From assembly GCA_029547805.1 (NCBI GenBank), contig JAKPOP010000003.1, forward strand, positions 124,001 through 188,000: 64,000 nt of DNA, in the 5' to 3' direction. The notes under the pieces are model-generated. The model was given only the letters and a program-made list of their open reading frames with translations, ran no database searches and was not told where the DNA came from. This DNA is from Deltaproteobacteria bacterium. Lineage in GTDB: Bacteria; Myxococcota_A; UBA9042; DTJE01. The position numbers and the translations under genes were made by a program. Within the stretch, counting starts at the first letter, position 1. Each line of letters starts with the position of its first letter. Below are positions 9,905-36,400 of this stretch, piece after piece.

Positions 9905-10444
9905 TCACGGGGTCATGACGTCCAGGCGCCACTTCCCCTGCTCCAGGATCAGCACCGTGGGGGGGTCCGACTTCCGCGGGTCATTGCAACGAACGAAGAT
10001 CTTGACCCGGTCGGCCGCCAGGGGAACCCGGCGGCACAGGGTGTAGGCGGGCCTCCTGGGATCCGCGACATACTTGCCGACGTGCTCCCGCACCCGGGGC
10101 CAGATGTTGCCCAGGATGTGGTCCTTTGGAGCCCCCTGGGTGAAGAGTCGGTAGAAGGCCTCCCGGCCTTCCTCCGAGTCGTCCCCCAGTGCGAGGCGAT
10201 AGGCATCGTAGAGGACCCCCTCCGGGGTGTCGTCCCCTCCGGCGGCCACTTCCTTCTGATCCGGACAACTGGAGGCAACCCGTTCCAGCGCCGGGGGCGT
10301 CTCGCCAGGGGTGCCCGCTGCCCGGTCCTGGGTCTCCGTGGCAGCGACTGGCGCCTTGGTGGCCACGGGTTCCCCGGTGGCCGGCACATCCTTCCGACAT
10401 CCCCAGACCGATAGCAGCAGGAGGACGATCAGGGCGGCTCGCAT
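9905..10444 (-). CDS. Lipoprotein, last gene of the Glt-like operon
   Basis: The 179-residue product has a lipoprotein leader MRAALIVLLLLSVWGC with the acylated Cys at residue 16. A linker rich in Ala, Thr, Pro and Glu follows (to about residue 55), then a compact domain with four or more cysteines (SSCPDQ, TLCRRV, FVRCND). The C-terminal strand pattern VKIFVRCNDPRKSDPPTVLI...GKWRLDVM recalls SnoaL/NTF2-like or DUF4878-like folds, but I cannot assign it. GGAGG seven bases before the ATG at 10444 fixes the start; an upstream in-frame extension to 10768 lies over the neighbouring gene. Residue +2 is Arg, compatible with outer-membrane sorting. It is the 3'-most gene of the operon beginning at 20425. 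Confidence 0.75.
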   Translation of the reverse strand: MRAALIVLLLLSVWGCRKDVPATGEPVATKAPVAATETQDRAAGTPGETPPALERVASSCPDQKEVAAGGDDTPEGVLYDAYRLALGDDSEEGREAFYRLFTQGAPKDHILGNIWPRVREHVGKYVADPRRPAYTLCRRVPLAADRVKIFVRCNDPRKSDPPTVLILEQGKWRLDVMTP

Positions 10445-10503
10445 GGTCGGCACCTCCGGACGGCACGGGGAGACGCCTCGCGGGCGCGGGAATCTCTGGC
10501 GGA

Positions 10504-10761
10504 TCAGCGGAACACCTCTTCCTTGGCCGTCTGCATCATCGGGTCCAGAAACGACTTCTTGAGTCGCAGCAGGCGCTCGAACTTCACCTTCTGCCGGGCG
10601 TCGGTGTAGAGGGCCGTCGGCTTCTTGATGTCGCCGTCGATCAACTGGTCCGAAAAGTCGTAGAACTTCGATTTCACCCCGCCCTTGGGTGCCGACTGGG
10701 CCAGCAGCAGCCCCGGAAGCAGCAATCCCACGCAGAGAACCATCCAACCCAGGCGCTTCAT
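10504..10761 (-). CDS. Small secreted protein next to the GltE-like gene (possible GltF/CglF counterpart)
   Basis: Only 85 residues. A classical signal peptide MKRLGWMVLCVGLLLPGLLLA precedes QSAPKGG, leaving a mature protein of about 64 residues that is basic and helical (KKPTALYTDARQKVKFERLLRLKKSFLDPMM). GGAGG is well placed before the ATG at 10761. It lies 36 nt after the GltE-like TPR gene. In Myxococcus the small exported GltF/CglF is encoded beside gltE (remembered, not searched), so this may be its counterpart, but at this size similarity cannot be judged by eye. It would act in the periplasm. Confidence 0.65.
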   Translation of the reverse strand: MKRLGWMVLCVGLLLPGLLLAQSAPKGGVKSKFYDFSDQLIDGDIKKPTALYTDARQKVKFERLLRLKKSFLDPMMQTAKEEVFR

Positions 10762-10797
10762 CGTCCACCTCCCGTGAAGCAGGCCGTCTTCATCCTA

Positions 10798-12180
10798 TCA
10801 CTTCGCATCGGGTTCTGCCGAGGGAGCCGCCGGGGCCGGAGCCGGCTGGGTTCCCTGCTCCGGCTGGGCCCCCTGCTCCGGCTGGGCCCCCTGGGGAGCG
10901 GTTTCCTCCTGGGGCTCCGGCGGCATCATGATCCCACCGTTGGCCTTCATCTCCTTGAGCACCGGGAGCCGCCCCCGGATGGGGTCGTTGGCCGGCGGGC
11001 TCGCCCGTTCGAGGTACCAGTCGTAATACTGGATCGCCTGATCCAGGTCGTTGAGCGAACTCTCGTACACCTTGCCGATACGGGCGTAGAGGGGCCCCAG
11101 GTTCGGGTTCAGTTCCAGGGCCTTCTTCCAGCGCTCGACCGCCTCCTTGGGCTGGTGCAGGCCCAGCAGGCACGAACCGGAACCGACCCAGGCCTCGGCC
11201 TCCCCGGGAACGAGGCGGATCACCGCGTCATACTGTTCCAGGGCGGCCTGGTAGTGCAGGTATTCCAGATAGATCGCCGCCAGATTCATCCGGGCCTCGA
11301 AGTTGTCGGGGTCCACCACCAGGGCCTTCTCGAAGGAGGCGACGGCCTTGGGTGTCTCTCCCATCTTCAGGTAGGTCACCCCGAGGTTCGTGAGGGCCTC
11401 GGTGCTGTTGGGGTCCTCCCGGAGGGCCTTCTCCTCGAAGACCCACCGCGCGATGTTGAGCCGGCCGGCCTGGAGGTTGATCAGGCCCCGGGTGTTCAGG
11501 GCGACCACGTTCCGGGGCTGGAGCAGCAGCACCTTCTTGACGAAGTCCTCGGCCGTCTTCTGGTCACCCCGCATGAGCCAGTAGAGCGCCAGGGCGTTGT
11601 TCGCCTGGACATTGTCCGTGTCCTCGGAGATGACCTCGTCGAAGAGTCGCTTCGCCTCGCTCTCGTAGCGATCGGCCTTCTGGGTGTCCCGGGCCTCCCG
11701 GGCCCTCTTTGCCAGCGAGAGATAGACCTTGCCCACGGCGGCCTTGGCATCCCGGTTGCCCGGATTCTTCTGGAGGGCCTGCTGATAGACCTCCACGGCC
11801 TCCAGCGGCCGCCCGGTCCGCTCGAAGAGCATGCCAAGGTTGAACCAGGCCTCCAGGAAGGCCGGGTCTCGCCGGGTCGCCTCCTCGAAGGCGCTCCGGG
11901 CGGTGGCATAGTCCGGAGGGGTCTGGGACACGGCCCGGACACCCCGCCGGAAGGCATCCTGGGCTGCCCGGTCCACGCCATCGACGTACTCGGGCTCCTT
12001 GGGAGCCTCGACCACGCGCATGGTGACCTGCTCGCGCTGCTTCTTGCCACCGTCCTTCTTCGTCTCCGCGGTGGTGGCAGCCTCGGTCCCGTCTCCTCGG
12101 ACCTGGGCGGTCCCACCACCGCAGGCGACGACAAACACGGTTCCAAGGACCCCAAGACTGGCAACTCCGAGAATCCTCAT
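10798..12180 (-). CDS. TPR lipoprotein, GltE/AglT-like
   Basis: The 460-residue protein has a lipobox at VVAC (Cys 20), a polar linker to about residue 65 and then around eight TPR units (for example DPAFLEAWFNLGMLFERTG, ALTNLGVTYLKMGETPKA, ARIGKVYESSLNDLDQA). The C-terminus is a Gln/Pro/Ala-rich tail with tandem GAQPEQ repeats. Myxococcal GltE (AglT) is a periplasmic TPR protein of similar size needed for gliding motility, and the adjacent large TPR gene matches GltD, so this is the likely role; an Nfs-type paralogue is the alternative. The start codon overlaps the stop of the preceding gene by 4 nt (ATGA). It should be anchored to the outer membrane (Gly at +2). Confidence 0.8.
   Translation of the reverse strand: MRILGVASLGVLGTVFVVACGGGTAQVRGDGTEAATTAETKKDGGKKQREQVTMRVVEAPKEPEYVDGVDRAAQDAFRRGVRAVSQTPPDYATARSAFEEATRRDPAFLEAWFNLGMLFERTGRPLEAVEVYQQALQKNPGNRDAKAAVGKVYLSLAKRAREARDTQKADRYESEAKRLFDEVISEDTDNVQANNALALYWLMRGDQKTAEDFVKKVLLLQPRNVVALNTRGLINLQAGRLNIARWVFEEKALREDPNSTEALTNLGVTYLKMGETPKAVASFEKALVVDPDNFEARMNLAAIYLEYLHYQAALEQYDAVIRLVPGEAEAWVGSGSCLLGLHQPKEAVERWKKALELNPNLGPLYARIGKVYESSLNDLDQAIQYYDWYLERASPPANDPIRGRLPVLKEMKANGGIMMPPEPQEETAPQGAQPEQGAQPEQGTQPAPAPAAPSAEPDAK
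10853..10893. repeat. 18-bp tandem repeat in the GltE-like tail
   Basis: Two exact copies of an 18-bp unit (10853-10870 and 10871-10888) and a partial third encode repeated GAQPEQ hexapeptides in the proline-rich tail. This kind of repeat can vary in copy number between strains. Confidence 0.85.
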
Positions 12181-15100
12181 GGGGCCACCTCCTCCACCAT
12201 GCGCACCTCGACCCCCTGGCGCCGCAGCGTCCGGATGAAGGAAGTGGTCGCCAGGGTGTCCTTGGACCGGTTGTTCCGCGTCAGTTCATCCCCGACCACC
12301 GGGAAGGTGTCCGGGTTCACCCGCACCGCGTACTCGGCGCAGGCCCGCGACCACTTGTTGTACACCTTCTCCTCGTGGGCCAGGGACAGGGCCCGCTCGA
12401 AGGCCCGCAGGGACTTCTCCTGGACGGGCCGCATGATCTCCTCGAGGATGCTCCGGTACTGGTCCTGGAAGGTCGGTGCGACGCTGAGCCACTCCATGCC
12501 CCAGTCGTACTTCTGGATCGTGTCCAGGTCGCCGTTCCGGAAGGCCGCCTGCACGATCCGGCAATCCTTCTGGGGAACCCCCGGGCAGGGGCAGTCGGGA
12601 ATCGGGACGTTGTCCAGTTCCTTGTAGAACTCGTAGTAGAGCAGCCCCATCTTGAAGAGGGCTCCGGCGGACCATCCTCCGGACTTGTAGGACAGAACCG
12701 CGTCGAAGGCCTTCTCGGCCCGCTGCTGGGCCTCGGCCTTCGCCGCAAGGGCCTTCTTGAGCACGTTGGGATCCACCGTCGAGGGGATCCGGAGGGCCGA
12801 GAAGTCGTCGTAGAGATAGTCCGCCAGTTCGAATGCGGCCTGCGCGGCGTACTGCTTCGAGGTCCGCACCGCCTCGGCGTCCTGAAGGCGGTTGAAGATG
12901 TCCAGGGCCTGCTGGAAGAAGGCCACGGCGGCCTTCCGCTGCTTCTCCTTGTCCAGGCGCTTGAGGCAGTCTCCCGCACGGGTGGCCGCCTCGACCGCGA
13001 GGTCGGCCCGCTTGTAGCCCTTCTTGAGCCACGCGGCGTAGGTCTCGTGCGCCTTCCGGAGCCCCTCGGGCGTGTTCATGGCCTCGTAGGCCCGTCCGAT
13101 GCGGAGGTGCACCATCGGGGCGTCCGGGTGTTCAGGGAACTGCTTCAGGAACTTCTGGTACACCTCGATGGCATCCCGGTATTCCCCGAGGGCCTCCCGG
13201 ATCAGGCCGGCGTTCTGGAAGGCATCGGCCATCTGGGCCTGGACGTGCCGATAGTTCTCCTTCTTCTCCTCCGAGTCTCCGGCCTGGGGCGCCGGGATGG
13301 ACCGGAACTGCTCCATCGCCTCGAAGGTCTCGGCGGCCTTCTCGAACTCCGTCTGGGACTCATAGATCATCGCCACCGTGAACAGGGCCTCCGGGGCGAC
13401 GTCACTCTTCGGGAACTCCCGGACCACGCGCAGGTAGACCCGGATGGCCTTGTCCGGCTCCTTCTGGCTTTCATACAGCGCCGCGACGTTGAACAGGGCC
13501 TTCGAGGCCAGTTCCTCGTTGCCCCGGAACTCCTCGTAGACCCGCATGGCCTCGTCGGAGGCCTGCCCGTACTTCTTCTCGACCGACAGCAGTCGGGCGT
13601 TCTCGGTCATCGCGATGGCGACGATCTTCTTGAGGTCCTTCTCGGACCTGACCGTGAAGTTCCGGGCGGCGATCAGGCGCCGGGCCCACTCCTCGACCTT
13701 GGTCCACTGCTGGAGCCGCTGGTAGCAGTCCAGCAGCGTGAACACGGCATAGGCCGCAAACTTCGAGGAGGGGTCGTAGTCGAAGAGGACCTGGAGCCGT
13801 TCCACCGCGTCCTGGAACTTCCCGTGCCGGTAGAAGACCTGGGCCGCGATGAACATGATCTCGGGGATCTTCTCGCCCCGCTTCGGATTCTTCTTTCGGA
13901 CCTCGGGGTCCCGGATGAGGTCCGTCAGCAGCCGGACGTAGGTGTCCGCGGCGGCCACGTAGTCCACCTCCAGCGGGTGGAGGTCCGTCTCGGGGATGGG
14001 GGCCTCGGCCTTCTTCGGGTCCACCTTGACCACCTCGATGCCCTCGCCCCGCTTCGTCCCCTCGCTGATCCCCGCTGCAATCATCAGTTCCTGCGTCGCG
14101 TAGATGACGCCCAGGGCCGCATCCTCCACGTACTCGCCCTTCGTGTCGCGCTCGATCACCTTCTTGTACTGCTCGAGGGCCTGCTGGTAGTCCTTCATCT
14201 GGTCATAGAGGATCTCGGCGTAATAGAAGTTCACCACGTAGGCGTTCTTGCTGTCCGGGAAGCGCGACAGGTAGACCTGGTACTTCTCGGCGGCCTTCCG
14301 ATAGAGGTCCGCCCGGTTCAGTCGCTGGGCCTCCCGATGGTAGTAGTTCGCGATGTAGAGCAGGTGTTCCTCCGTGAGGGCGTCTGCCTCCTGGAGGACC
14401 TCCTCGTGGTTCCTGTTCGCGGTCCGCCAGGAACCGTTGGGCTTGAAGTACTCCAGGGCCTCCATCGTCACCCGGTCCAGCATGTCGTAATCGTTGGTGT
14501 TCTTGTAGAGGCTCAGCAGGATCTTGTAGTACTCGACGATGGCCGGCGTGGTCCGCTCCCGCTCGATGAAGTGCCGGAAGAGGGCCACCGCCTCGGGGAT
14601 CTTGTCCTGCCCGACGTAGAGGTCTCCCAGCATGCGCAGTTTCTTGTAGGCCTCCTCCTCGGACAGGACCTTCAGGAAGTAGTCCCGGGCTCGCTGCCAC
14701 CCGTTGTCCACCTCGGCGAAGGTCACCACAAGGTCGTTGAGGGCCTGATTCCGGAACTCGATGACGCCCTTGCCGGTTCCCTGCTTGCCCACGGCCGCCA
14801 CGACCTTCTGGAACATCTCGATGGCCGTGTCGTACTCCCGGAGGTTGAAATAGACCCACGCCAGTTTGTACATGGCGTAGTTGACCATGGCCGAGTTCGG
14901 AAACTGCTGGATGATCCGCTCGTAGTTGGTCTTGGCATAGAACAGGGAGTTCGTCTCGAAGTAGTACTCCGCCATGGCCAGCAGGGCCTCGGGGATCCAC
15001 TTGGACTTCGGATAGTCCTTCACGAGGCGGTTCAGGTACTCGACGCCCTCCTTCTGCAGGGCCCGGTTCTTCTTCGCCTTGCCCTCCTTCAGGGCGCCCT

Positions 15101-15638
15101 TCCCGAGGTAGTAGTAGACCTCGTCAATGCGGGCATACCCCGGAAATTCCTGGAGGATCCGTCGATAGAGGTCCAGGGACCGGGAATAGTCCTCGACCGG
15201 CTCCTGGGGAGGCTCGGTGAGGCGTCCCTGGTTGTAGGCCTCCATCGCCTTCTCCCACTCGGCCCGCTGCTGGAGGTACTGGTAGAGCTGCTCCTCCCAC
15301 CAGGCCTCGGCGAGCATGTGCATGACCTTCGGGGCCCGCTCCGGGTCCTTCCGGTAGTCGGGGTTCGCCAGCAACTGCTCGAGCTTGGCGATGTTCTCCC
15401 GGCGCTTCTCGCTGATGGCGCGCATCTTCGCCGCGAGCGACTCATTGGCCAGGGCCTCGGCCTGTTCCAGGCTGAACTTGCCGCTCCGGGCCGTCCCGGG
15501 TTGCCCCTGTTGCCCCTCGGCAGGGGAGCCGGCCTCCGGTGCCTTGCCAGGCGCGCCCTGGGGCTGTCCTCCCGTCTGGGCCGCCACCGGGGCAGCGATC
15601 AGCAGCGCCAGGCAAAGGGAAAAACGGCTTGTGCTCAT
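12177..15638 (-). CDS. Large periplasmic TPR protein, GltD-like
   Basis: The 1153-residue product has a signal peptide (residues 1-20, ending APVAA) and a proline/glycine linker. The rest is helical and packed with TPR-type pairs, including LYRRILQEFPGYARIDEVYYYL, KTNYERIIQQFPNSAMVNYA, KYQVYLSRFPDSKNAYVVNF and VYLRVVREFPKSDVAPEALF. The recurring FP(N/D/K)S turn is typical of outer-membrane TPR scaffolds such as BamD and YbgF. Near residue 1030 a small cysteine cluster (CPCPGVPQKDC) interrupts the repeats. Size, leader and position beside a GltE-like gene match GltD of the Myxococcus gliding machinery, which is periplasmic. The adjacent 641-residue gene upstream and the coupled GltE-like gene downstream indicate one complex. 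Confidence 0.82.
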   Translation of the reverse strand: MSTSRFSLCLALLIAAPVAAQTGGQPQGAPGKAPEAGSPAEGQQGQPGTARSGKFSLEQAEALANESLAAKMRAISEKRRENIAKLEQLLANPDYRKDPERAPKVMHMLAEAWWEEQLYQYLQQRAEWEKAMEAYNQGRLTEPPQEPVEDYSRSLDLYRRILQEFPGYARIDEVYYYLGKGALKEGKAKKNRALQKEGVEYLNRLVKDYPKSKWIPEALLAMAEYYFETNSLFYAKTNYERIIQQFPNSAMVNYAMYKLAWVYFNLREYDTAIEMFQKVVAAVGKQGTGKGVIEFRNQALNDLVVTFAEVDNGWQRARDYFLKVLSEEEAYKKLRMLGDLYVGQDKIPEAVALFRHFIERERTTPAIVEYYKILLSLYKNTNDYDMLDRVTMEALEYFKPNGSWRTANRNHEEVLQEADALTEEHLLYIANYYHREAQRLNRADLYRKAAEKYQVYLSRFPDSKNAYVVNFYYAEILYDQMKDYQQALEQYKKVIERDTKGEYVEDAALGVIYATQELMIAAGISEGTKRGEGIEVVKVDPKKAEAPIPETDLHPLEVDYVAAADTYVRLLTDLIRDPEVRKKNPKRGEKIPEIMFIAAQVFYRHGKFQDAVERLQVLFDYDPSSKFAAYAVFTLLDCYQRLQQWTKVEEWARRLIAARNFTVRSEKDLKKIVAIAMTENARLLSVEKKYGQASDEAMRVYEEFRGNEELASKALFNVAALYESQKEPDKAIRVYLRVVREFPKSDVAPEALFTVAMIYESQTEFEKAAETFEAMEQFRSIPAPQAGDSEEKKENYRHVQAQMADAFQNAGLIREALGEYRDAIEVYQKFLKQFPEHPDAPMVHLRIGRAYEAMNTPEGLRKAHETYAAWLKKGYKRADLAVEAATRAGDCLKRLDKEKQRKAAVAFFQQALDIFNRLQDAEAVRTSKQYAAQAAFELADYLYDDFSALRIPSTVDPNVLKKALAAKAEAQQRAEKAFDAVLSYKSGGWSAGALFKMGLLYYEFYKELDNVPIPDCPCPGVPQKDCRIVQAAFRNGDLDTIQKYDWGMEWLSVAPTFQDQYRSILEEIMRPVQEKSLRAFERALSLAHEEKVYNKWSRACAEYAVRVNPDTFPVVGDELTRNNRSKDTLATTSFIRTLRRQGVEVRMVEEVAP

Positions 15639-15672
15639 CGGACCCTCGCATTGAAAGGAGTGAGTCGTTGCC

Positions 15673-17598
15673 TCACTGCTCGGTGCACTGGCTGGTCAGC
15701 AGGCTTCGGAAATAGGGGATCTCGTCGACCCAGTATTCTCCCTCGAAGGGCCACACCGCGGTGTCGTCGCCGACAATGGCCACGCTGCGCCCCTGGACGA
15801 CCTTTCCTTCCTCTTCGGCCTCGCCTACCGAGACGCGGATCTCCCGCGTCATTCGGTCGATGTCGGCGGCATTGATGTCCACCTCGATCTCGGTCTGCTG
15901 GACCTGCGCATCGGCGATGTTCTGCTGGACCTCGGTGAGGATCTGCTGGACCTTCACGCCGGCCCGGATGATGCCGTCCTTCTTCAACACGGCCAGTTTC
16001 ACCAGCATCTCCTGGGCGAAGGTCCCCAGGGACCCGGCGTTGGCCCGGAGCAGCCGGTCCTCCCGCTCGATCTGCCGGATGGTCCGATAGAGGTTGTAGA
16101 ACTCCACGTTGGAGAGGACGGGCCATTGCAACTGCAACGGAAGCCGCACGGTGGCGGACCCGGGCTCGTTCACGGACCGGACGAAGGCCATGTAGAACTC
16201 CTCGGGGCTCCGCTGGGCGTTGATGAATCGCCGCAGGGGCTCGATGTTCACGGCGATCTCCTGATCGAACTGCTTGAGCGCCTGGTAGGCCCGGTCATAG
16301 CGACACAGGTCCCCGAAGGCCCGGGCCTCCAGGATCCAGAGTTCCGGGTAGAAGGTGGTCCCGAAGACCGGCGAATGAAGGATCTGGAAGGCCCCGAGGG
16401 CGCGGCTGTAATCGCCCTTCATCAGGTAGGTCCAGGCCAGTTCATAGAAGACGGTCCCGGCCCGGATGGAGTCCCGGGGGATCTTCTTGTAGTAGAAGAT
16501 GGCCGCGTCGAAGTTCTCCGATTCGTAGGAGATCCGGGCCAGTGCCATGTAGGCGAGGTCCAGGATGTCGTTGCCGGCATGGGTCTTCTCGGCGATCTCG
16601 ATGGACTTCTGGAGGTTCTCGACCGCCGACTTGAACATCTTGTAGCGGACCTGGACCAGGGCGGTCAGGTAGAGGGCCTTCGCGGCATCCGGCGACTCGG
16701 GGGAGGTGGCCTCGAAGTGCTTCAGGGCTCGCTGGTAGTTCGCGGCGTCATAGAAGTACTCCCCCATCACGTAGTTGAACTCGTCCTGGAACTTCTGGCT
16801 GAAGCCCGTAAGCGGAAAGCGGGTCAATTCCTCGAGGTCCGGCGGATTGTAGATGACCTCCTGGCGCAGTCTGCGGAGGCGTGCGAAGGCCTCCTGGAAG
16901 AAGGGCCGATCCGGTCCCTCCAGCAGCACCTCGACGAGCAGTCTCGCCGCGGACTGGTAGAGCCCCGCCTGGGTCAGGGCCGAGGCCATGCCGTACTTGG
17001 CGTTGTAGGCCTCGAGGCTCCCCGGACCAAAGTTGCCCTCGGCGAGGAAGCGCTGGAAGGTCTGGATCGACTCGACCCACTTCCCCGAGTCGGCCAGTTC
17101 GAGCCCTCGGCGCAGCACTCCCCGGGCGTAGGCGGCCTTTCGGGCCTCCTCCGCCTTGCGCTGTTCCTCGGCCAGGCGTCGGGCCTCTTCCCGCCGCTTC
17201 TCCTCCTCGGCCTGCAGTTCCTCGGCGGTCTTTTCCCGGACCGGAGCCGGTGTCGCTGCTGCAGGCGTTGCTTCCGGCTTCCCCGCCGATGGTGCCGCCG
17301 GAGTCGCCCCGGGGGCCGCCTGACCCGCCTGAGGTGCCTGTCCCTGCCCGGTGGCCAGCATGTACCGGATCACGCCATCGGGGACCCCGGCCTTCTTGAG
17401 TTCCAGGATGTCCTGGATGTTCAACTGGAAGACCGTCTTGTCCTTCTCGATGGCCTTGATGACGTCGGCCTCGGGGATCCCGAGACGCACCAGGGTGATG
17501 ACCTCCTCCTTGGTGATGGCCCGGGCCTCCTCGGAAAACGCCGCGAGACAGCCCCAGAGGATCCCGACTGTCGCCGCCAGCCTGATGGTTCTCTTCAT
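15673..17598 (-). CDS. Periplasmic coiled-coil/TPR protein, GltC-like
   Basis: The 641-residue protein starts with a signal peptide (residues 1-27, cut after EARA). The mature N-terminus, ITKEEVITLVRLGIPEADVI...LKKAGVPDGVIRYML, contains two short helical modules of the GVPDxVI type seen in many secreted proteins. A proline/alanine linker and a very charged helix (EELQAEEEKRREEARRLAEE, about residues 125-165) follow, then TPR-like pairs to the end. GltC of Myxococcus is a periplasmic TPR protein of about this length encoded beside the outer-membrane barrels GltA/GltB (remembered), and here the neighbour upstream is also a barrel. A lipobox-like LWGC inside the leader is followed by more hydrophobic residues, so signal peptidase I is favoured. 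Confidence 0.75.
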   Translation of the reverse strand: MKRTIRLAATVGILWGCLAAFSEEARAITKEEVITLVRLGIPEADVIKAIEKDKTVFQLNIQDILELKKAGVPDGVIRYMLATGQGQAPQAGQAAPGATPAAPSAGKPEATPAAATPAPVREKTAEELQAEEEKRREEARRLAEEQRKAEEARKAAYARGVLRRGLELADSGKWVESIQTFQRFLAEGNFGPGSLEAYNAKYGMASALTQAGLYQSAARLLVEVLLEGPDRPFFQEAFARLRRLRQEVIYNPPDLEELTRFPLTGFSQKFQDEFNYVMGEYFYDAANYQRALKHFEATSPESPDAAKALYLTALVQVRYKMFKSAVENLQKSIEIAEKTHAGNDILDLAYMALARISYESENFDAAIFYYKKIPRDSIRAGTVFYELAWTYLMKGDYSRALGAFQILHSPVFGTTFYPELWILEARAFGDLCRYDRAYQALKQFDQEIAVNIEPLRRFINAQRSPEEFYMAFVRSVNEPGSATVRLPLQLQWPVLSNVEFYNLYRTIRQIEREDRLLRANAGSLGTFAQEMLVKLAVLKKDGIIRAGVKVQQILTEVQQNIADAQVQQTEIEVDINAADIDRMTREIRVSVGEAEEEGKVVQGRSVAIVGDDTAVWPFEGEYWVDEIPYFRSLLTSQCTEQ

Positions 17599-17676
17599 GG
17601 TCTTACCACCTCGCTCCAGAAGGGGTCGGAACCCCGTTCCGCTCCCGGGCGCCCATCGCGTGGGAACAGCGCCCTG

Positions 17677-18459
17677 CTACTTCGGGGCGGGGGTCAGGTA
17701 CCCCAGCCCCAGGGTGATCTCGGCCAGGGACCGGACGCCGTCGGACCACTCGCTGTTCCCCTTCCCCGGCCAGGCCGGAAAGATGTAGTGCCGATAGTCC
17801 AGCCGGAGAGCCAGGTAGTCCGTCAGGAACAGGTGCGCCCCGAGGCCCAGGTTCATCATCAGGTTGAACGGGACGTTGCCGCTGTAGGACCACCGCGTCG
17901 TCCACTTCTTCTTCAGGTTGTCGTAGATCTCAGACCCCATCACCCCGAGGCCGATCAGGACCCCGATGTCGAAGGAGGTCAGCTTGGCATTGAAGATGCT
18001 CAACTTGCCGTGAATGGGGGCCCAGAAGGCATTGAGCCCCGCATACCACTGCACCCGCTCGGGGATCTGGACCGTCGAGATGGCATTCCCCGAGAACTTC
18101 AGCAGGTCCTTCCGGAGGTTGCTGTCCGAGGAGGGCACGTAGGCCCCGGCGATCTCCAGCGCCACCGACTCCAGGAAGAAGTAGTCGTAGCGCAGACCCA
18201 CCGGGAAATAATTGAAGAAGGAATCGTTCGGAATGATCCCGACCAGCAGCCCGATCTCGTGCCGCTGATTCTTCTCGTAGATCCGCTTCTGGATCACGCG
18301 GACCTCCCGCTCCTTCCCCCACACGCGGTCCAGATTGCGGTCCAGCGTCGTCCGCTCCTCTGCGGGAGCCTCCGTGGCGGCCTCCTGCGCCAGACCGGAA
18401 ACCCCGCTGGTCAGGACGACCAGCCCCAAGACCATCCCAAAGGCCCACCTGCCGTTCAT
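17677..18459 (-). CDS. Outer-membrane beta-barrel protein (OMP_myx type, GltA/GltB-like)
   Basis: The 260-residue protein has a signal peptide (cut near GLA-Q25), a charged periplasmic stretch (ERTTLDRNLDRVWGKEREV...) and then alternating-hydrophobicity strands separated by short turns: HEIGLLVGIIPNDSFFNYFPVGLRYDYF, ESVALEIAGAYV, VQWYAGLNAFWAP, TSFDIGVLIGLG, NLMMNLGLGAHLFLTDYLALRLDYRHYI, ending SLAEITLGLGYL. This matches the myxobacterial outer-membrane barrel domain that includes GltA and GltB. The ATG at 18459 is preferred over the upstream in-frame start at 18501 because it begins the leader cleanly. It lies between the VWA lipoprotein and the GltC-like gene in one operon and presumably forms the outer-membrane part of the complex. 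Confidence 0.8.
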   Translation of the reverse strand: MNGRWAFGMVLGLVVLTSGVSGLAQEAATEAPAEERTTLDRNLDRVWGKEREVRVIQKRIYEKNQRHEIGLLVGIIPNDSFFNYFPVGLRYDYFFLESVALEIAGAYVPSSDSNLRKDLLKFSGNAISTVQIPERVQWYAGLNAFWAPIHGKLSIFNAKLTSFDIGVLIGLGVMGSEIYDNLKKKWTTRWSYSGNVPFNLMMNLGLGAHLFLTDYLALRLDYRHYIFPAWPGKGNSEWSDGVRSLAEITLGLGYLTPAPK

Positions 18460-18525
18460 GACTGTCCTCGCTGATGGTGACCGTCCCACGGTGCCCTCCA
18501 AGGCCCCGATGAGTCCAACACGCCT

Positions 18526-18542
18526 GGCCCGCGGTGCGGGCC
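18526..18542 (-). terminator. Perfect hairpin after the VWA lipoprotein gene
   Basis: Seven-base arms GGCCCGC/GCGGGCC with a 3-nt loop begin 17 nt after the VWA stop. No T-run follows on the minus strand, so it may attenuate or stabilise the message rather than end it, tuning the downstream genes of the operon. Confidence 0.4.
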
Positions 18543-18559
18543 TTCCCCCGAAAAGGATC

Positions 18560-20425
18560 CTACCCTGCCGGCTGGCAGACCCCGTCCGTGCAGGTCCCGC
18601 CGGTGCAGGGGGTCCCGTTCTCCACGTTCACCGGGTTGCAGAGCGCGTTGAGCGTCTTGCAGGGCCCCGGATCCCGGCACTGGCCGAAACAGCAGACGCT
18701 GCCCCCGTCCTGGCACGCAGTCTGATCGGCCTTCCAGTCCGTCACGCAGGTCCGATCGCCGGACCGGCACCCGACGTTCTCACAGGAACCGACCTGGGAC
18801 CGCCATTCGCACGAGTCCCCGGCGGCACAGGGGACCCGGAAGGCCAGTCGGGTATCCCACTTCGGGATGTTGCGACCGGTGGCGGTCTGGTCCACGTAGC
18901 CCACTCGCATCTCCTGCTGGGCGTTCGGGTTCACCGACCCTTCAATCATCTTGATGCTGCCACCGGCGGCCACCTGGGCCCCGGGCCACAGGCGATTGTT
19001 GGCCAGGTCTGCGACGTCCAGGGCCAGGATCCAGGCCCCCGCCATCACGCTGCGAAACCGCTGGACGACCAGGGTGAGGGCCGTCAGGAGGTCCCCCTGG
19101 GTCTGATCGGTCCGGGAGAAGTCCCAGGAGTTCAGGAACAGGTAGTGGCCGCCGGTCCGGCAGGCGATCTCCTGCTGGCGGGCGTCCCGCTCCCGGTACC
19201 CCTGGGCCTGGAACTGGATGAAGGAGATGTGCACCGGGACCCGCTCGGGGTCGAGCCAGTTCCCAGAACCGTCCTTCAGGTCCGGCTCCAGGGCCGCCAG
19301 GAAGTCCTCGAAGGAGACGTCGCTGCACGAGTCGTTCTGCTTGTACTCCCGATAGGAACTGCCCGTCTTCTTCAACAGCACCGGCTGAAAATCCGGAGAG
19401 TCCGGATGGCAGGTGTCGGGGCCGTCGTTGATCACCAGGATGTGGCGGACCCGGCTGGTGCTGGATGTCTTCATGAACTCGTAGATGTCCTTCACCGCGG
19501 CCCAGAGCGGCGTGCGCCCACCGGGGCTCTGGACCAGTTTGCTGAAGGCCCGACTCTCGGTGATGATCGTCCGATTCGTGCCGAAGCAGTTCCGGCGCTT
19601 CTCCGCCTCGGTCGCGCCATAGGTGTCGTCACAGACGATCGTCGGTCGGAGTCCAACGGCCTCGCTGTACTGGAAGACGCCCGCCCGGTCCCCGGGGTTC
19701 AACAGGCTGAAGAGGGATCGGACGGCCGAGACCCGCTGCCCGTCGGAATCGGAGGCGTGGTCCTTGAAGTTCTGGCTGTCCCAGGCATTGGACTTGTCCT
19801 TTGCCTCCAGGCCCGTCTCGGGCTCCACGAAGCCCTTCATGGACCCCGACTGGTCGATCAGCACGGCCAGAGAGAGCGCCTCCCGATCCGATGCCGCCGG
19901 ACGGTATTCCCCTTCGTAGTAGGACCGGTAGTCGATCTTCTGGGGGGTGGCGTTCCGGGGTCCCGCGAGGCCCTGACACTGGGCCGTCGTCTTGAGGTCC
20001 TCGTCCGGGTACGGCTCGAAGCACTCCAGGTCCACCTGGAACAGCGACTCGGTCACCGTGTTGCCGACCTCCACGACGGCCCGCTGGTCCCGTCCCTTCT
20101 TGACCAGATCCCCGGGGCGGATGGAGGTGTCGTTGTCCTTCTCGGTGGGGTCCGTGGCCGTTCCCACCTCGGTGCCGATCATGGCCACCGAGAACAGCAG
20201 AGCGTCCACCGGGGCTCCATCGCGGTCCTCCGGCGTGCACTGGCGCTGGTAGGTCCCCGATTCGCCACGATGTGCGGGAAAGACCGAGACGATCTCCAGC
20301 CGGTTGAACTGGAAGGTGCTCAGGACGGCAATCCAGCGGTAGTTGCAAGCCGTGAGGGCCAGGATCGCCAGGGCGATCAGCCCCAGCATCGACCTGCCAC
20401 CCGGACGTCCCAGAAGGCGCGACAT
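18560..20425 (-). CDS. VWA-domain cysteine-rich lipoprotein (CglB-like adhesin candidate)
   Basis: This 621-residue protein has a lipobox LTAC (Cys 27; +2 Asn). A von Willebrand A domain runs from about residue 185 to 400, with a complete MIDAS: DQSGS at residues 191-195, the Thr of GGRTPLW and the Asp of VINDGPDT. Two beta-sandwich-like flanks and a C-terminal cysteine-rich tail follow (CQDGGSVCCFGQC, CTGGTCTDGVC). In Myxococcus the outer-membrane lipoprotein CglB has an integrin-like VWA/MIDAS fold and couples the Glt machinery to the substratum; position here, first in an operon with GltA/C/D/E-like genes, supports the analogous role. CglB is shorter (about 416 residues), so orthology is uncertain. 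The start at 20425 has GGAG eight bases upstream. Confidence 0.8.
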   Translation of the reverse strand: MSRLLGRPGGRSMLGLIALAILALTACNYRWIAVLSTFQFNRLEIVSVFPAHRGESGTYQRQCTPEDRDGAPVDALLFSVAMIGTEVGTATDPTEKDNDTSIRPGDLVKKGRDQRAVVEVGNTVTESLFQVDLECFEPYPDEDLKTTAQCQGLAGPRNATPQKIDYRSYYEGEYRPAASDREALSLAVLIDQSGSMKGFVEPETGLEAKDKSNAWDSQNFKDHASDSDGQRVSAVRSLFSLLNPGDRAGVFQYSEAVGLRPTIVCDDTYGATEAEKRRNCFGTNRTIITESRAFSKLVQSPGGRTPLWAAVKDIYEFMKTSSTSRVRHILVINDGPDTCHPDSPDFQPVLLKKTGSSYREYKQNDSCSDVSFEDFLAALEPDLKDGSGNWLDPERVPVHISFIQFQAQGYRERDARQQEIACRTGGHYLFLNSWDFSRTDQTQGDLLTALTLVVQRFRSVMAGAWILALDVADLANNRLWPGAQVAAGGSIKMIEGSVNPNAQQEMRVGYVDQTATGRNIPKWDTRLAFRVPCAAGDSCEWRSQVGSCENVGCRSGDRTCVTDWKADQTACQDGGSVCCFGQCRDPGPCKTLNALCNPVNVENGTPCTGGTCTDGVCQPAG

Positions 20426-20485
20426 GTTCAAACTCCGCCAAAGAAGCACGAGGCGCTGTCCCTCGCCCCCGATTTGCGCGCGTAG

Positions 20486-20514
20486 TTTATCCCGGTCCGA
20501 CTCGGCCTTGTCAA
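20486..20514 (-). promoter_or_regulatory. Promoter of the Glt-like operon
   Basis: Read on the minus strand: perfect -35 TTGACA (20514-20509), 17-bp spacer, -10 GATAAA (20491-20486). It lies 61 bp upstream of the VWA start codon and is the only clear promoter before seven closely spaced same-strand genes. Confidence 0.7.
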
Positions 20515-20588: not shown

Positions 20589-22796
20589 TCAGTACCAGGA
20601 CGCGGTGACGATATGCTGCACCGCGTCGACCTGGTAGACCGATCGGGTCGCCGCATCGAGGACGAAGAGGAACTTCCCTGCCTGGACGTGGTCCACCGGG
20701 GCCCCGCCCAGAGCCAGGGACTTCGGCTGGAACCCCGAGGTGACCTGGAAGGTGAGACGCTGATCCCGACGGGGAGGCACCACGACGGGGCGGAAACGGG
20801 AATCGATCCGGCACCCCGGGACGACGTTCAGGGAGAAGGCTGGGTTCTGGAAGCGCTGGAGGGCGAAGTTCTCCCCGATCCGGGCATCCCCCAGGCGAAC
20901 AGGGCAGGCCTGGAGCACCTCGCCGCCGTCGACAGGCATCGTGGTCCGTGCCCTGCCCGTGAACTGAGGAGAGGAGTCCCCACGAGGCACGCAGATGCCC
21001 CCGGAGGAGGTCCGGTTGTGCAGGAAGCCGCTCGTGGATCCGACGACCAGCCAGTGGCCCGAGGCCCGGATCTCGTACCGCAGGCGCCTTCCTTCCAGGC
21101 ACCCCGCCGGCGGAAGCGGCAGCGAGGCAAAGGCGGGCTCCAGCAGCAGACGCGTGGCCTCCACCGAGGCGATCCGATACTCCAGGCTCTCCAGCGAAGC
21201 GATGTCGCAGCCCGCCTCCGGGTCGGGACGGATCACCACGTGGTCCCCCGGGAGGTCCTCGTTTCCCTCCTGGACGCCCAACTCGCAGAAGTCCTGCGAG
21301 GGGTCTTCAAAGACGGAGACTGCCCCGTCCACGGGCCCTTCCCGGAAGGTCCCACATCCCGTGGCATGGGGCAGGACCCCCTCATAGACGACCTCCCAGG
21401 ACTCCGAGAGTTCCCGGGTCGGTTCCCCCTCGAACCGGATCCCGTAGTAGATCGAGTGCCCCGGTCGGTCCTGGTCCGACTGGATGTCCGACATCCCGAA
21501 GGAGGGCCAGTCGGCCCGCTGGAGGATCCCCAGGACCTGGAGGTCCTCCCCTTCGATGGTCACGGGCATCGTGGCGACGCTCTCGACGTCCGTGGAGGCC
21601 TCCTCGACCCGGTGGAGGGACTGCCCCGTCCTCGCCGGATCGACGACGATTCGCTCGACGAGCCCCGATGCGAGCACCGCGTATGCCCGCAGGCCCTTCT
21701 CGGCGTCCTCGGACTCCGGGTCGTCCGGTTCCGGGAGGACGAAGAAGGCCACCCCGCGCACTGGCGCGCTGACGGGGAGATGACGCACTCCCAGGCGCTC
21801 CAGCAGGGAGTTGCCGGACCCGGGAGCCTCGGGCTGGGGGGCCTGGACGTCGATGACCTGGAGGGTCGCGGCGTCGAGAACCATCACCCCCTCGGGCGTC
21901 TCCAGAGGAAGGTAGAGGAACCGCCCGTCGGGGCTCGGCGCGGGAGGTCCCCCGACCCGGTATTCGCGGTCGGGAGTCCACGGGGAGACGTCGCAGCCGG
22001 GAAGGGGGTCCCCCCGAGGAGCCGCATCGGGGCCCAGGATCGCGTGCATCCGACCGTCCTTGGGGCCCGGGGCGCCAAGGTCGATGCGCTCGACAACGTC
22101 CCGCCCCTCTCCCCTCAGTGCCACGTAGAGCGCCGTTCCGTCCGGCGCGACAGAGACCCCCAGGGGACGTGCCGACAGGCCGTATCGCCTGGGATCGGGA
22201 AGAGTGACCCCGTCCCGGGTCAGGGCCGAGACCGGAACCAGGAGGATCGACCATGCGCCCTGGCAGGTCGAGGGCAGGACCAGGGTTTCCTCCCGGGTGC
22301 TCCCGTCGGTGCCGACGACCTCGCCGATCTCCATCCAGGAGGGTTCGCAGGGAAGCGCCGCCCGAGGGAGTCGGATGCCTGGAGCGATGGACCGGGGGTC
22401 CAGCCAGGCGATGGCAGGACCCGTCCCGAGGTCGTCCCGGCGGATCGCGACCAGGACCCGGTCGGAGGCGGCGGTCGATCGGACGGTGACCCCGTCCCCG
22501 TCGATGGCGATGGGGGTCCATCCGGGAACGAAGGGGTCGGCATCGAACCGGTCGGTGCTGGACCCGTGGGCCACCACGATCCCCCGCGCGTCCCCGTCCA
22601 GGGACCAGGAGGTCCAGACCCCTTCCCGGTCGGAGCACTCCTCCCGGGGGATTGGCTCCCCGGTGGAGGAGGCACAGGTGACCGCCAGGGACAGGGGTCT
22701 TCGGATCACCGGGATGGACGGTGCCGAGGTGCTGTCGCATCCAGCGACGATGGCCGGAAGCCACAGGAGTCCGGGAAGCCAGGAGAGGCGCCTCAT
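20589..22796 (-). CDS. Large lipoprotein, probable beta-propeller, unknown role
   Basis: The 735-residue product starts MRRLSWLPGLLWLPAIVAGC (acylated Cys 20), followed by Asp at +2, the inner-membrane retention residue under the classic Lol rule and the only such case among the lipoproteins here. The body has repeating strand patterns such as GLSARPLGVSVAPDGTALYVAL, PSPDGRFLYLPLETPEGVMVLDAATLQV and a C-terminal AGKFLFVLDAATRSVYQVDAV, typical of YVTN/Lgl-type propeller blades. Scattered cysteines probably form disulfides. The much longer open frame above 22796 is a shadow of the next genes. It overlaps the upstream lipoprotein gene by 4 nt (ATGA), so the pair is coupled and likely acts together. 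Confidence 0.8.
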   Translation of the reverse strand: MRRLSWLPGLLWLPAIVAGCDSTSAPSIPVIRRPLSLAVTCASSTGEPIPREECSDREGVWTSWSLDGDARGIVVAHGSSTDRFDADPFVPGWTPIAIDGDGVTVRSTAASDRVLVAIRRDDLGTGPAIAWLDPRSIAPGIRLPRAALPCEPSWMEIGEVVGTDGSTREETLVLPSTCQGAWSILLVPVSALTRDGVTLPDPRRYGLSARPLGVSVAPDGTALYVALRGEGRDVVERIDLGAPGPKDGRMHAILGPDAAPRGDPLPGCDVSPWTPDREYRVGGPPAPSPDGRFLYLPLETPEGVMVLDAATLQVIDVQAPQPEAPGSGNSLLERLGVRHLPVSAPVRGVAFFVLPEPDDPESEDAEKGLRAYAVLASGLVERIVVDPARTGQSLHRVEEASTDVESVATMPVTIEGEDLQVLGILQRADWPSFGMSDIQSDQDRPGHSIYYGIRFEGEPTRELSESWEVVYEGVLPHATGCGTFREGPVDGAVSVFEDPSQDFCELGVQEGNEDLPGDHVVIRPDPEAGCDIASLESLEYRIASVEATRLLLEPAFASLPLPPAGCLEGRRLRYEIRASGHWLVVGSTSGFLHNRTSSGGICVPRGDSSPQFTGRARTTMPVDGGEVLQACPVRLGDARIGENFALQRFQNPAFSLNVVPGCRIDSRFRPVVVPPRRDQRLTFQVTSGFQPKSLALGGAPVDHVQAGKFLFVLDAATRSVYQVDAVQHIVTASWY

Positions 22797-24016
22797 GGAA
22801 TCCTCGCGATCTCGGTGGCCCGGTCCGGATCCGCCGGGTCCAGGGCCAGGACGCTGACGTCCTGGGACTCGAAGTTGGTCACCACGGCCCGGTCCCCGGC
22901 AATGGTGATGCCGTAGGGTCCCTCTCCGACCGGCACCCGGACGAGCACCCTTCCCTGCTCCGGATCGACACCATAGACCGAGTCCCCGGCAAAGTCCGTG
23001 ACCCATACCGTCTCCTGAGGGCCCGGGCCCCGGTGGACGGCCAGTTGCCCCGGAGAACCCGCGAGGGGAATCACCTGGCGCATCGCCAGCAGGCCCTCCC
23101 GGTCCAGGTCCAGCACCAGCAGCGCTGCGGGAGAACGCCAGGACACGTAGAGTCGGGACCAGTCGGACGAGGCGGCGATGCCGCGCCCGTAGTCGCCCGA
23201 TGCCGCGATGGTGGGGACCGTCCAGGGCATCCGGGGCAGCAGGCGGAAGGTCCCGTCTTCCCGGGTGACCACGGCGCTGTGGATCGCGTTGCGGTTTCGT
23301 GTGGTTCCGAAGACGGCCCGCCCCCCGTTCCCCAGGGGGACCTCGACCAGGGAATGGAGCCCCGGGTCCCAGGCCAGATGGCCCTGGACGACGGGGGTCC
23401 CCTCCTCCGGGACATCCAGCACGATCAGGATTCCGTCCTGGAGGCTGCCGACGTAGAGGGGGCGATGACGATGCCCTGCCCCTTCGGCGTCCTCTTCCAT
23501 CACCGGCGCCCCCAGGGCCATGGCGAAGGGGTCCCGGTTGTCCACGGAGTCCCCTTCCGGATCGCGGATCGTTCCCTGGAGGACAAGGGCATCGTCTTCC
23601 AGGCAGATGGACGCGTCCGCCGGGGACCCGGGAAGTTCGCAGGCCAGTCGGGGTTCCTGCCCCTCTCCCTGCCGCCGGATGCCGAACCACGCCAGGGCGT
23701 CCCCGTCCCGGAGGGAGAGATATCCCCGGGTCGTCCCGTCGGGCCTCGAGTCCAGGACCAGGTCCCCCCCGAAGGACCCGACCTGGAGGATCCCCTCGGC
23801 GACGATGCCGGGGGGATCCAGGCGGACGGGCGTGACCCAGCCGCGTTGCCAGAAACTGTCGAAGTTGGTCGACACGACGTAGGCGAAATCCCCCTCGGGG
23901 TCGGCCGCCACGGCTGTCGGAAAGGAGAACCGGCTTCCATCGGGGACCTCCCCCCGGACGTTGTTGCAGGCCACGAGGCCCGCCAACAGGCACCAACGGA
24001 GGGGGGTCCCCTTCAT
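22793..24016 (-). CDS. Beta-propeller (YVTN-type) lipoprotein
   Basis: The 407-residue protein has the lipobox LVAC (Cys 17, +2 Asn). Repeats include FPTAVAADPEGDFAYVVSTNFD, GIAASSDWSRLYVSWRSPAALLVLDLDREG, ETVWVTDFAGDSVYGVDPEQGRVLVRVPVGEGPYGITIAGDRAVVTNF and DVSVLALDP, clear blades of a seven-bladed propeller. Such proteins bind partners or glycans on the outer surface; nothing here gives a ligand. Three successive possible starts (GTG 24022, ATG 24019, ATG 24016) exist; 24016 gives the best distance from AGAGG. It is followed with a 4-nt overlap by the Asp+2 lipoprotein and lies 51 nt after ppdK, with no clear promoter of its own. Confidence 0.8.
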   Translation of the reverse strand: MKGTPLRWCLLAGLVACNNVRGEVPDGSRFSFPTAVAADPEGDFAYVVSTNFDSFWQRGWVTPVRLDPPGIVAEGILQVGSFGGDLVLDSRPDGTTRGYLSLRDGDALAWFGIRRQGEGQEPRLACELPGSPADASICLEDDALVLQGTIRDPEGDSVDNRDPFAMALGAPVMEEDAEGAGHRHRPLYVGSLQDGILIVLDVPEEGTPVVQGHLAWDPGLHSLVEVPLGNGGRAVFGTTRNRNAIHSAVVTREDGTFRLLPRMPWTVPTIAASGDYGRGIAASSDWSRLYVSWRSPAALLVLDLDREGLLAMRQVIPLAGSPGQLAVHRGPGPQETVWVTDFAGDSVYGVDPEQGRVLVRVPVGEGPYGITIAGDRAVVTNFESQDVSVLALDPADPDRATEIARIP

Positions 24017-24067
24017 CATCACCTCTCGAACGACCGGAACAGGCGCCCCGCGGGCAGGGATATCGTC

Positions 24068-33455: not shown

Positions 33456-36400
33456 TCAGGAGGACTGGAGCGTTCCTTCCTCGGCCCCCACGGCCCGCCG
33501 AAGGGCGAAGTGCTCCTCCGAGACCGTGAAGCGGACCAGTTCCTCCATCCGCTCCTTCAGGGCCAGGCCGCTGAAGGAGACGTCCTCGGTGCGGAGGATG
33601 TCCATGGCCACCGGAAGGCTGCCGCAGACCAGCATGCCCGCCCGCAACGAGGTCAATTCCAGGCCCTTCACGAAGTCGCTGTAGATGGCCTCGAAGTCCA
33701 TCGTCCCCTGGCGCCGGACCAGCTCCGTGACGGTCTGTGTCAGCGCGCTGCGCTGCTGCTGGGGCATCCGCCTCTCCATCGTCCGGACCAGGGTCAGGAT
33801 GACCTCGGCCCCGGCCCCGATCTGCATGTCCGGATAGGTCAGTTTCAGCGCCGCTGCCAGGTAGACCTTCACCTCGGTGCGGGACTTCACCGCCGCCAGG
33901 AAGTTGCCGGGCTGGAGGAACGCCAGCTGTCGGCCCAGCAGGAACGCCAGTTCCCGCTCTTCCTTGCCCGTGAGCATGTCGTTGCCGACCACCAGGGCCG
34001 GGATCGGGGACAGGAACTCCACCCGGAGCCCCGAGGGCTTTTCGTCGCGGAAGACCTTGTGGTTCATGGGCGACAGGGTCTTCGTGACCGCCCGATAGAC
34101 CTCGTTGAAGGCCAGCTTCACCGAGACATCCAGTTCGTCCTTCTTCCGGAGGCCGATGTCCTTGAGTTCCTTCGCACCCAGTTCCGTCCCCATCTGGGTG
34201 AAGATCATCGCGAGCAGGCGGGTCACCAGGGGATTCTGCCGCGGCGAGGTCAACTGGGTCTCCCACCGGAGGGCGTCCAGTCCGACCTTGAACCATGGCA
34301 GCGACGGGTCCAGGTTCTTCTCGAAGAAGTCCCGATCCTCCGGGTCCGCCCAACCCATCGCCACCAGCACCGACGACACCATGAAGGCCTTGTCCAGGGC
34401 CTTCATCCGCTTGAACAGACGGGCCATGGCCTTGTAGGACGGGGCCACCTCCGGGCTCATCGGGGACAGGGCGACGATGGCCCGGTGGGCCTCCAGAGCC
34501 TTGTCCCATTGCTCCTGGCCCTCCATCTCGTAGAGTTGCGCCAGGATCTCGTGGGTCCGGCGGTCCTGGGGCTTGAGCCGGGCCGCCTCCCCGAAGGCCG
34601 TGATGGCGTAGTCCGGCTGGTGGAGGCGGCTCCGATAGATCTCCCCCAGGGCCGAGTAGAGGGTGAACTCCAGTTCCGGGTTGGCCCGGGACCGCAGCCG
34701 ATCCAGCATCCTCCGGTAGTTCTCGGCCTCGTCGTCCCACTTCCGGGCCCGGGTCAGGATCTCGTCGATCTGCCGGAAGGCCTCCAGGAACTCGGGGTCC
34801 TCGTCCAGGGCCTGGTTGAGGCACTCGACGGCCTTCCTGTCGTCGCCGAGCTTCTCCCGGTAGATGGCCGCCATGGTCTGGTAGTGTCGGGCCCTCTTCT
34901 CCGGGGCGTCCTCGGCCCTGGCCAGCAGTTCCAGCATGTAAAGGGCGTCGTCGATCGACCCGCTGCTCAGGTAGATGTCGAAGAGTTTCAGCAGGGCGAC
35001 CTTCGCATTCGGATTGACCTCCAGGGCCTCCTTGTATGCGGCGACGGCTCCGAAGACGTTGCCCAGTTTCTCCCGGTAGATATCGCCACACTCCAGCAGG
35101 ATCCGGAAGCGCTCGAAGGGATCGGCCTTGGCCTCGGCCAGGGCCTGCTTGTGCCGGATCACCGCGGACCAGTCCTGCTTCTTCTCGCAGACGGCGATCA
35201 GGCGTTCCAACACGGGAATCCGGGACGGATCGGCATCCAGGATTCCCTCCAGGTGGCGGACGGCCTCATCCAGGCGTCCGTCCTCGATGCAGGCCTCCGC
35301 CAGGACGTACTGGGCCCCGATCCGTTCGTCGGGCCCCATGAGGTCCCCGCCGACCTCCAGGGCCTTCTCGAACTGGTCCTTCGCCAGCGCCCAGAGGCGC
35401 CGGGTCGAGTAGATGCGTCCCAGTCCCAGGAGCGCCCCGGGATGGTTGGGGTTGCTCTTCAGGGCCGCCTGGTATTCCCGGAGGGCCCGATCCTGGTCCA
35501 ACAGGTGTTCGGCGCAGAGCCCCAGCAGGTGGTGGACCTCGGCCAGCCGTGACGGGTCCGCCTCGGACCCGGTGGACCGCATGAGGAACTCCAGCAGGGG
35601 CATCGCCCGCTCCCACTGTTGCGCCTCGGTGTGGGCCCGAGCCAGGAAGAAGGAGATGTCGGGCAACCGGGGGTCCAGTTCCAGGGCCTTCTCGAAGTGC
35701 AGGATGGCCGTGTTCCGGTCCTTCAGTCGCTCCAGGTAGATTCGTCCCGCCAGCGCCCGGTGCCGGGCCCGTTCCTCGTCGGTCGTCGCTGCGGCCTCCT
35801 GCCGCAGGTGGACCGCCGCCACCTTCTCCCAGTCGCCCATCTCCTCGTAGATGCCCCGGAGCGTGTCGGCCGCCTCCTCGTTCCCCGGGTCCAGCATCAG
35901 GACGTCCTGGAGCATCTTGATCGTGCGGTCCAGGTTCTCCAGTTTCCGGTAGAGGACCCCGGCGGCCTGGAGCATCAGGGAGGCGATCTCCCGGGGCTCC
36001 TCGACGTGCTCCTTCCACCGGATCAGGGCCTGCACCTGCTCCTCCCAGGACTCCATGGCCCCGAAGAGGCGCACCAGTTCCGAGTAGGCGAGGCGGCTCC
36101 CGGGGTCGATCTCCAGGATGCGCTGCTGGACCGAGACGGTCGCGTTGAGGTCCTCCAGTTGCCGCTCGTAGACCATCGCCAGCCGACGCAGGAGTTCGAT
36201 CCGGTCGCCCTCCTTCTGCGCCTGGGCGATCCCACCCTCCAGGTGGTTCACCAGTCCGTTCCAGTCCTCCGTCTCGGCCAGCAGGCGGGCGACGTTCTCG
36301 AAGGCCTCCCGGTTCTCCGGGTCCAGGTCCCGGAACTGCTGCCAGAAATCGAGGGCCTTGGCCTTGTCCCCCAGCAGGTTCTCGTGGAGGATCGCCAGCC

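Follow-up and report, generated by a model that had tools for sequence, protein, structure and literature searches.

A seven-gene operon in a 64,000-nucleotide stretch of DNA from a Deltaproteobacteria bacterium (hereafter the window) encodes products that sequence comparison supports as gene-for-gene homologues of the Glt/Nfs machinery, with a VWA lipoprotein gene at its head. The operon is probably a paralogue found only in one class of the Myxococcota, and it may represent a specialization of Glt/Nfs particular to this class, one that carries its own VWA adhesin and is probably driven by a motor. The function discussed for it is a proposal.

The seven ORFs of the operon were all intact and located on the minus strand at positions 9905 to 20425 of the window. 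The intergenic distances from the VWA gene to the last lipoprotein gene were 100, 78, 34, -4 (an overlap), 36, and 59 nt. The features of the operon and its upstream region are as follows.

22793 to 24022, minus strand: upstream lipoprotein 1, 409 aa; a neighbor conserved in family f1 only
20589 to 22796, minus strand: upstream lipoprotein 2, 735 aa; no Pfam match; a neighbor in the nearest relatives and a candidate operon member
20484 to 20514, minus strand: promoter-like site TTGACA-N19-TAAACT, with its downstream edge 58 nt before the VWA ATG
18560 to 20425, minus strand: VWA lipoprotein, 621 aa, with lipobox and MIDAS; first gene of the operon
17677 to 18459, minus strand: OMP_myx_plus outer-membrane beta-barrel of the GltA/B and NfsA/B kind, 260 aa (TIGR04565)
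15673 to 17598, minus strand: GltC-like periplasmic TPR protein (C), 641 aa (NF033756 and BLAST)
12177 to 15638, minus strand: GltD-like periplasmic TPR protein (D), 1153 aa (BLAST)
10798 to 12180, minus strand: GltE-like TPR lipoprotein (E), 460 aa (NF033758 and BLAST); 4-nt overlap with the end of gene D
10504 to 10761, minus strand: GltF/CglF-like secreted protein (F), 85 aa (NF033764 and BLAST)
9905 to 10444, minus strand: small lipoprotein, 179 aa, with no family match; last gene

An earlier sequence-only reading of this DNA had described seven same-strand genes with small gaps or overlaps behind one TTGACA promoter, and the gene layout was as described, with gaps from -4 to 100 nt. The promoter part of that claim held only partly. 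The TTGACA-N19-TAAACT pattern occurs once in the window versus 0.01 matches expected, but a sigma-70 scan did not report the site. Given this long spacer of 19 nt and the negative scan, a promoter at this site ahead of the VWA gene is only plausible. The two upstream lipoprotein genes (20589 to 24022) overlap each other by 4 nt, and the pair was seen in the nearest family only.

We compared the operon products with NCBIfam models and, by BLAST, with Glt-like clusters of the Myxococcota genome G002, using as the anchor the cluster whose GltC passes the NCBI cutoff (482.8 bits). The barrel scored 91.5 bits against TIGR04565 (OMP_myx_plus), which passed the cutoff of 60, and matched the barrels of two G002 clusters with E values of 2e-24 and 3e-12 (the latter in the anchor cluster). 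Protein C scored 172 bits (E 2e-50) against the GltC model NF033756, below the cutoff of 450, and 173 bits (E 6e-50) against the anchor GltC. Protein D matched the GltD adjoining the anchor GltC with 317 bits (E 2e-94) over 1056 residues. Protein E scored 99.9 bits against the GltE model NF033758, below the cutoff of 225, and 94 to 103 bits against the GltE-like proteins of G002 (E 3e-23 in the anchor cluster). Protein F scored 44.6 bits (E 1.1e-11) against the CglF model NF033764, below the cutoff of 90, and matched the F proteins of two G002 clusters with E values of 1e-9 and 3e-9 (the latter in the anchor cluster).

As a control for the TPR background, an unrelated 3586-residue TPR protein of the window gave only 27 to 32 bits with C, D, and E (27 with C and 30 with D). 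Since each protein scored far higher with its own counterpart, generic TPR similarity was excluded as the source of the Glt matches. The earlier assignment of a VWA lipoprotein, an OMP_myx barrel, and GltC-, GltD-, and GltE-like TPR proteins was upheld. The control protein (33456 to 44216) itself has about the size of GltI, a giant protein of M. xanthus, and did not match the GltI model.

The last two genes had been considered to lack a counterpart. This is correct for the last gene but not for gene 6, which the NF033764 match removes from the orphans. We take CglF of NCBIfam to be the GltF of the literature. The CglF model, with 88 positions, agrees in size with GltF (89 aa; PMC3169522). The last lipoprotein had no family match in Pfam or NCBIfam, and its structural model, helices followed by four strands, was weak (pLDDT 41.5) and too poor for a fold. 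It was found only in the nearest families, f1 and f2, and in part of their members. The similarities give good support for placing the operon in the wider Glt/Nfs trans-envelope family, save for gltG, which was absent from it in every neighborhood read.

The product of the first gene contains a signal peptide, a lipobox (LTAC/N), a MIDAS motif (DQSGS...GRTPLW...DGPDTC), and a Cys-rich C terminus. The lipobox Cys was conserved in 21 of 21 aligned VWA sequences and the MIDAS in nearly all of them; the protein thus has the CglB-type feature of a VWA domain with MIDAS on a lipoprotein. Pfam VWA_2 matched the window protein weakly (E 0.045, under the cutoff) and its best class relative with an E value of 1.5e-5. 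A search of NCBIfam with the window protein and a PDB profile search with the class VWA alignment each returned no match. AlphaFold and Foldseek did not confirm the VWA fold, as the model was too poor (pLDDT 40) and gave no match under E 0.001; the weak Foldseek matches of this model included RGLG1, whose entry title names its MIDAS. The VWA lipoprotein is a candidate surface adhesin, whose exposure at the surface we infer.

Relatives of the VWA gene were found in 47 of the 50 class genomes searched, with two weak matches among the 219 other Myxococcota searched. When the profile of the class family was applied to 20 other Glt-like neighborhoods (L117 to L136), no relative was found. The module was present in 19 of the 20 class neighborhoods fetched; the remaining one (L106) holds a second VWA copy alone. 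The order VWA-OMP-C-D-E-F was kept in all 14 neighborhoods that were complete to gene F (families f1, f2, f3, f5, and f9), and the readable part of the five incomplete ones (one f4 locus and some f1 loci) had the same order. In some families, the barrel gene and the F gene are each present twice. All VWA-OMP-C-D-E-F neighborhoods lie within one Myxococcota class, and the order kept in relatives of several families excludes a chance grouping of genes. A sequence titled Oligoflexales (DUVQ01000082.1) shares gene content with a contig in the window's own family and is probably a mislabelled MAG.

Trees of proteins C and D were built by quick searches with SH-aLRT support only and without the M. 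xanthus Nfs sequences. In both trees, the operon proteins of the class formed a single clade with a support of 100, and the relatives grouped largely by family. When the window clade was joined with the G002 Glt protein, the AU test gave p-AU values of 0.066 (C) and 0.11 (D). The operon had also been suggested to be ancestral; the trees do not bear this out, as they give a class-specific clade without placing it securely with either Glt or Nfs. Because of this loose placement and the missed strict cutoffs, membership in Glt or Nfs proper cannot be claimed.

The window's own genome, a MAG of 32 contigs that is 96.7% complete, contains three Glt-like sets: the operon, a set on contig C23, and a set on contig C9. 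The C23 set comprises C, D fused with E, F, G, and an extra TPR lipoprotein. The fusion is a 1386-aa GltD-like protein whose C-terminal part matches GltE (L022:11283-15443), and a relative of equal length was observed in another genome (L127). The C23 cluster falls in the phylum-wide clade, apart from the window clade, and its GltC-like protein scores 286 bits on the GltC model versus 172 for protein C of the operon. The operon was therefore rejected as the evident Glt orthologue.

The C9 set has the order C-D-E-F-G and adjoins EpsL-like and Wza/EpsE-like genes, which resemble exopolysaccharide export genes (L024:2213-14251). C9 moreover encodes a GltJ-like protein together with two OMP_myx barrels. 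A set resembling that of C9, followed by AglR- and AglQ-like motor genes, was observed in G002 (L120). The position of the polysaccharide genes bears on the idea that the operon encodes an Nfs-like machine which moves polysaccharide or coat around the cell surface. The gene order is that of nfsA-F, likewise in one cluster (PMC3858216), and the C tree does not reject a grouping with the second G002 cluster (p-AU 0.31), which may or may not itself be an Nfs cluster. However, no polysaccharide genes were noticed beside the operon, such genes adjoining the C9 set instead; no VWA gene is reported among nfsA-H, and no sporulation is known in the lineage. We consider this explanation quite improbable.

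We searched the same genome for a motor. An AglRQS-type motor with one TolQ-like and two TolR-like proteins is encoded on contig C5 (103 bits for MotA_ExbB and 70 and 49 bits for ExbD), and among the five MotA/TolQ loci of the genome, by gene calls, only this one has one TolQ and two TolR genes. The products of the operon are thus Glt/Nfs homologues in a genome with an AglRQS-type motor, so the sequence-only reading falls neither on similarity nor on the motor. The C5 motor genes directly follow a GltG variant. This variant (L021:14713-16473) apparently has several transmembrane helices before the usual body and a TonB-like tail.

The GltG variant is conserved across the class and lies beside an AglRQS-type motor in many genomes. 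Among loci with sufficient flank, this holds for most of those from f1 and f2; two f5 loci also show it, with the motor genes ahead of GltG. The adjacency was not seen in f9, f4, and some other loci, whose flanks are short. In no locus read did the motor locus adjoin the operon. One G002 cluster (L119) unites the motor and GltG with the barrel, C, and D, which shows that the motor and transducer halves can form one locus; a relationship of this cluster to the window clade depends on a long branch and is not secure.

Since gltG and the motor genes are missing from the operon in every neighborhood read, the operon might encode an outer-membrane assembly without a motor, in which the VWA lipoprotein is only displayed, as a static adhesin. 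We regard this as very unlikely, since C, D, and E are homologous to parts of the Glt force-transducing complex and the class keeps the GltG variant, in many genomes beside the motor. In M. xanthus, one AglRQS motor drives two modules, Glt and Nfs; two-hybrid tests show an interaction of AglR with GltG or NfsG, and parts of Glt or Nfs move by the proton motive force (PMC3858216). The C23 and C9 sets each have their own GltG, both without a motor, so the C5 motor may serve those sets instead.

MglA is the switch needed for M. xanthus gliding. The Roadblock/MglB search of the window's genome gave no match for MglB, and in the search for MglA, the Arf model found only larger GTPases there. The same Arf probe recovered MglA in four other Myxococcota. 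With an MglA query from another Myxococcota genome, the window's genome gave only a 342-aa GTPase (E 2.7e-4), and a clear relative was found in only 1 of 52 class genomes (L173); it is divergent, with 40% identity to canonical MglA. One further genome had two matches that were weaker and lay in longer ORFs. Failure to find MglA in a single MAG would be weak evidence, which cannot be said of its absence from nearly the whole class.

The sequence-only reading had proposed a Glt/Nfs-like machine perhaps for gliding. The homologues and the motor agree with the machine, but gliding is weakened because searches for MglA found none in this genome and almost none across the class. Gliding of the Glt kind would use the VWA lipoprotein as a CglB-like adhesin under a polarity control other than MglA. 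The genome does encode a C-D-E-F-barrel set, a VWA lipoprotein, an AglRQS-type motor, and a GltJ-like protein; CglB serves M. xanthus as its gliding adhesin and is held by the outer-membrane complex of Glt (PMC13104615, PMC12288465), and Luciano et al. speculated that bacteria with AglRQS and GltD, E, F, G, C, A, and B may glide (PMC3169522). Against this, neither MglA nor MglB was found, the C23 set is the better Glt candidate, C, E, and F are below the Glt cutoffs (172/450, 99.9/225, and 44.6/90 bits), and the VWA protein, which resembles CglB in domain type, is only a putative homologue of it. A gliding machine is therefore an unlikely explanation.

Taken as a whole, the explanation we lean toward, with slight confidence in its favor, is that the operon supplies one half of a Glt/Nfs-type machine, the half in the periplasm and outer membrane, and that the machine is for motor-driven adhesion or surface transport and not for MglA-controlled gliding. 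An AglRQS-type proton-driven motor and a GltG-type linker, both encoded elsewhere, would exert a pull on C, D, and E across the periplasm. These TPR proteins would couple to the outer-membrane barrel that holds the MIDAS-type VWA lipoprotein at the surface; by analogy with M. xanthus, the connection from a GltG to the barrel and the VWA lipoprotein would run through C, D, E, and F. The VWA lipoprotein may grip a surface, a neighboring cell, or a polymer. Motor-driven adhesion or surface transport would be a likelier output than gliding of the M. xanthus kind because of the lack of MglA. We infer that the C5 motor serves the operon, that the VWA protein is surface exposed, and that the output is adhesion or transport. 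On the other hand, VWA proteins can also act inside the envelope. More tentatively, the operon could be a third specialization of the Glt/Nfs family, for neither gliding nor sporulation, kept across the class, in which a dedicated VWA adhesin at the outer membrane is driven without MglA control by an adhesin-transducer operon and a separate motor-GltG locus.

A VWA gene at the head of a Glt-like operon offers independent support for a working link of VWA adhesin, barrel, and TPR transducer. As MglA was not detected in almost all of the lineage, one can test whether the force-transducing core is able to work without the polarity switch. The apparent novelty lies in a VWA-led set that is kept class-wide, lacks gltG, and occurs in a lineage without detectable MglA; no report of such a set was found in the open-licence literature searched.

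In M. xanthus, different loci encode CglB and the Glt proteins. The Glt system (G1 gltD-J, G2 gltKBAC, CglB, and AglRQS) has counterparts of the operon's barrel, C, D, E, and F genes, arranged in the same relative order (B-A-C and D-E-F), and likewise includes a VWA lipoprotein; the window's genome also encodes an AglRQS-type motor and a GltG variant. The VWA gene would occupy the position of gltK if the G2 and G1 orders were fused. Unlike Glt, the operon is one joined set with the VWA gene first and without gltG, MglA/MglB were not found, and C, E, and F are under the equivalog cutoffs. The M. xanthus G4, G5, and M2 clusters, which have no known function and are compared by description only, likewise add Glt-like sets to a genome that already has Glt and Nfs. 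To our knowledge, two further Glt-like clusters of M. xanthus are without known function. Nfs, the spore-coat machine of M. xanthus (nfsA-H), similarly unites homologues of the barrel and of C, D, E, and F in one cluster, with its motor encoded elsewhere, whereas the operon has a VWA lipoprotein first and no G homologue.

The joining of the parts had been presented as notable. This does not hold, since nfsA-H is one cluster in M. xanthus, and joined Glt-like clusters (also in Anaeromyxobacter and Bdellovibrio) and multiple paralogous sets have been published (PMC3169522, PMC3858216). The only reported occurrences of CglB are in Myxococcales, with none in Anaeromyxobacter (PMC3169522). Like the operon, the joined clusters of Anaeromyxobacter and Bdellovibrio (Bd0828-0838) group G1- and G2-type genes, but the published description of the Bdellovibrio cluster includes Agl components and most of the glt homologues.
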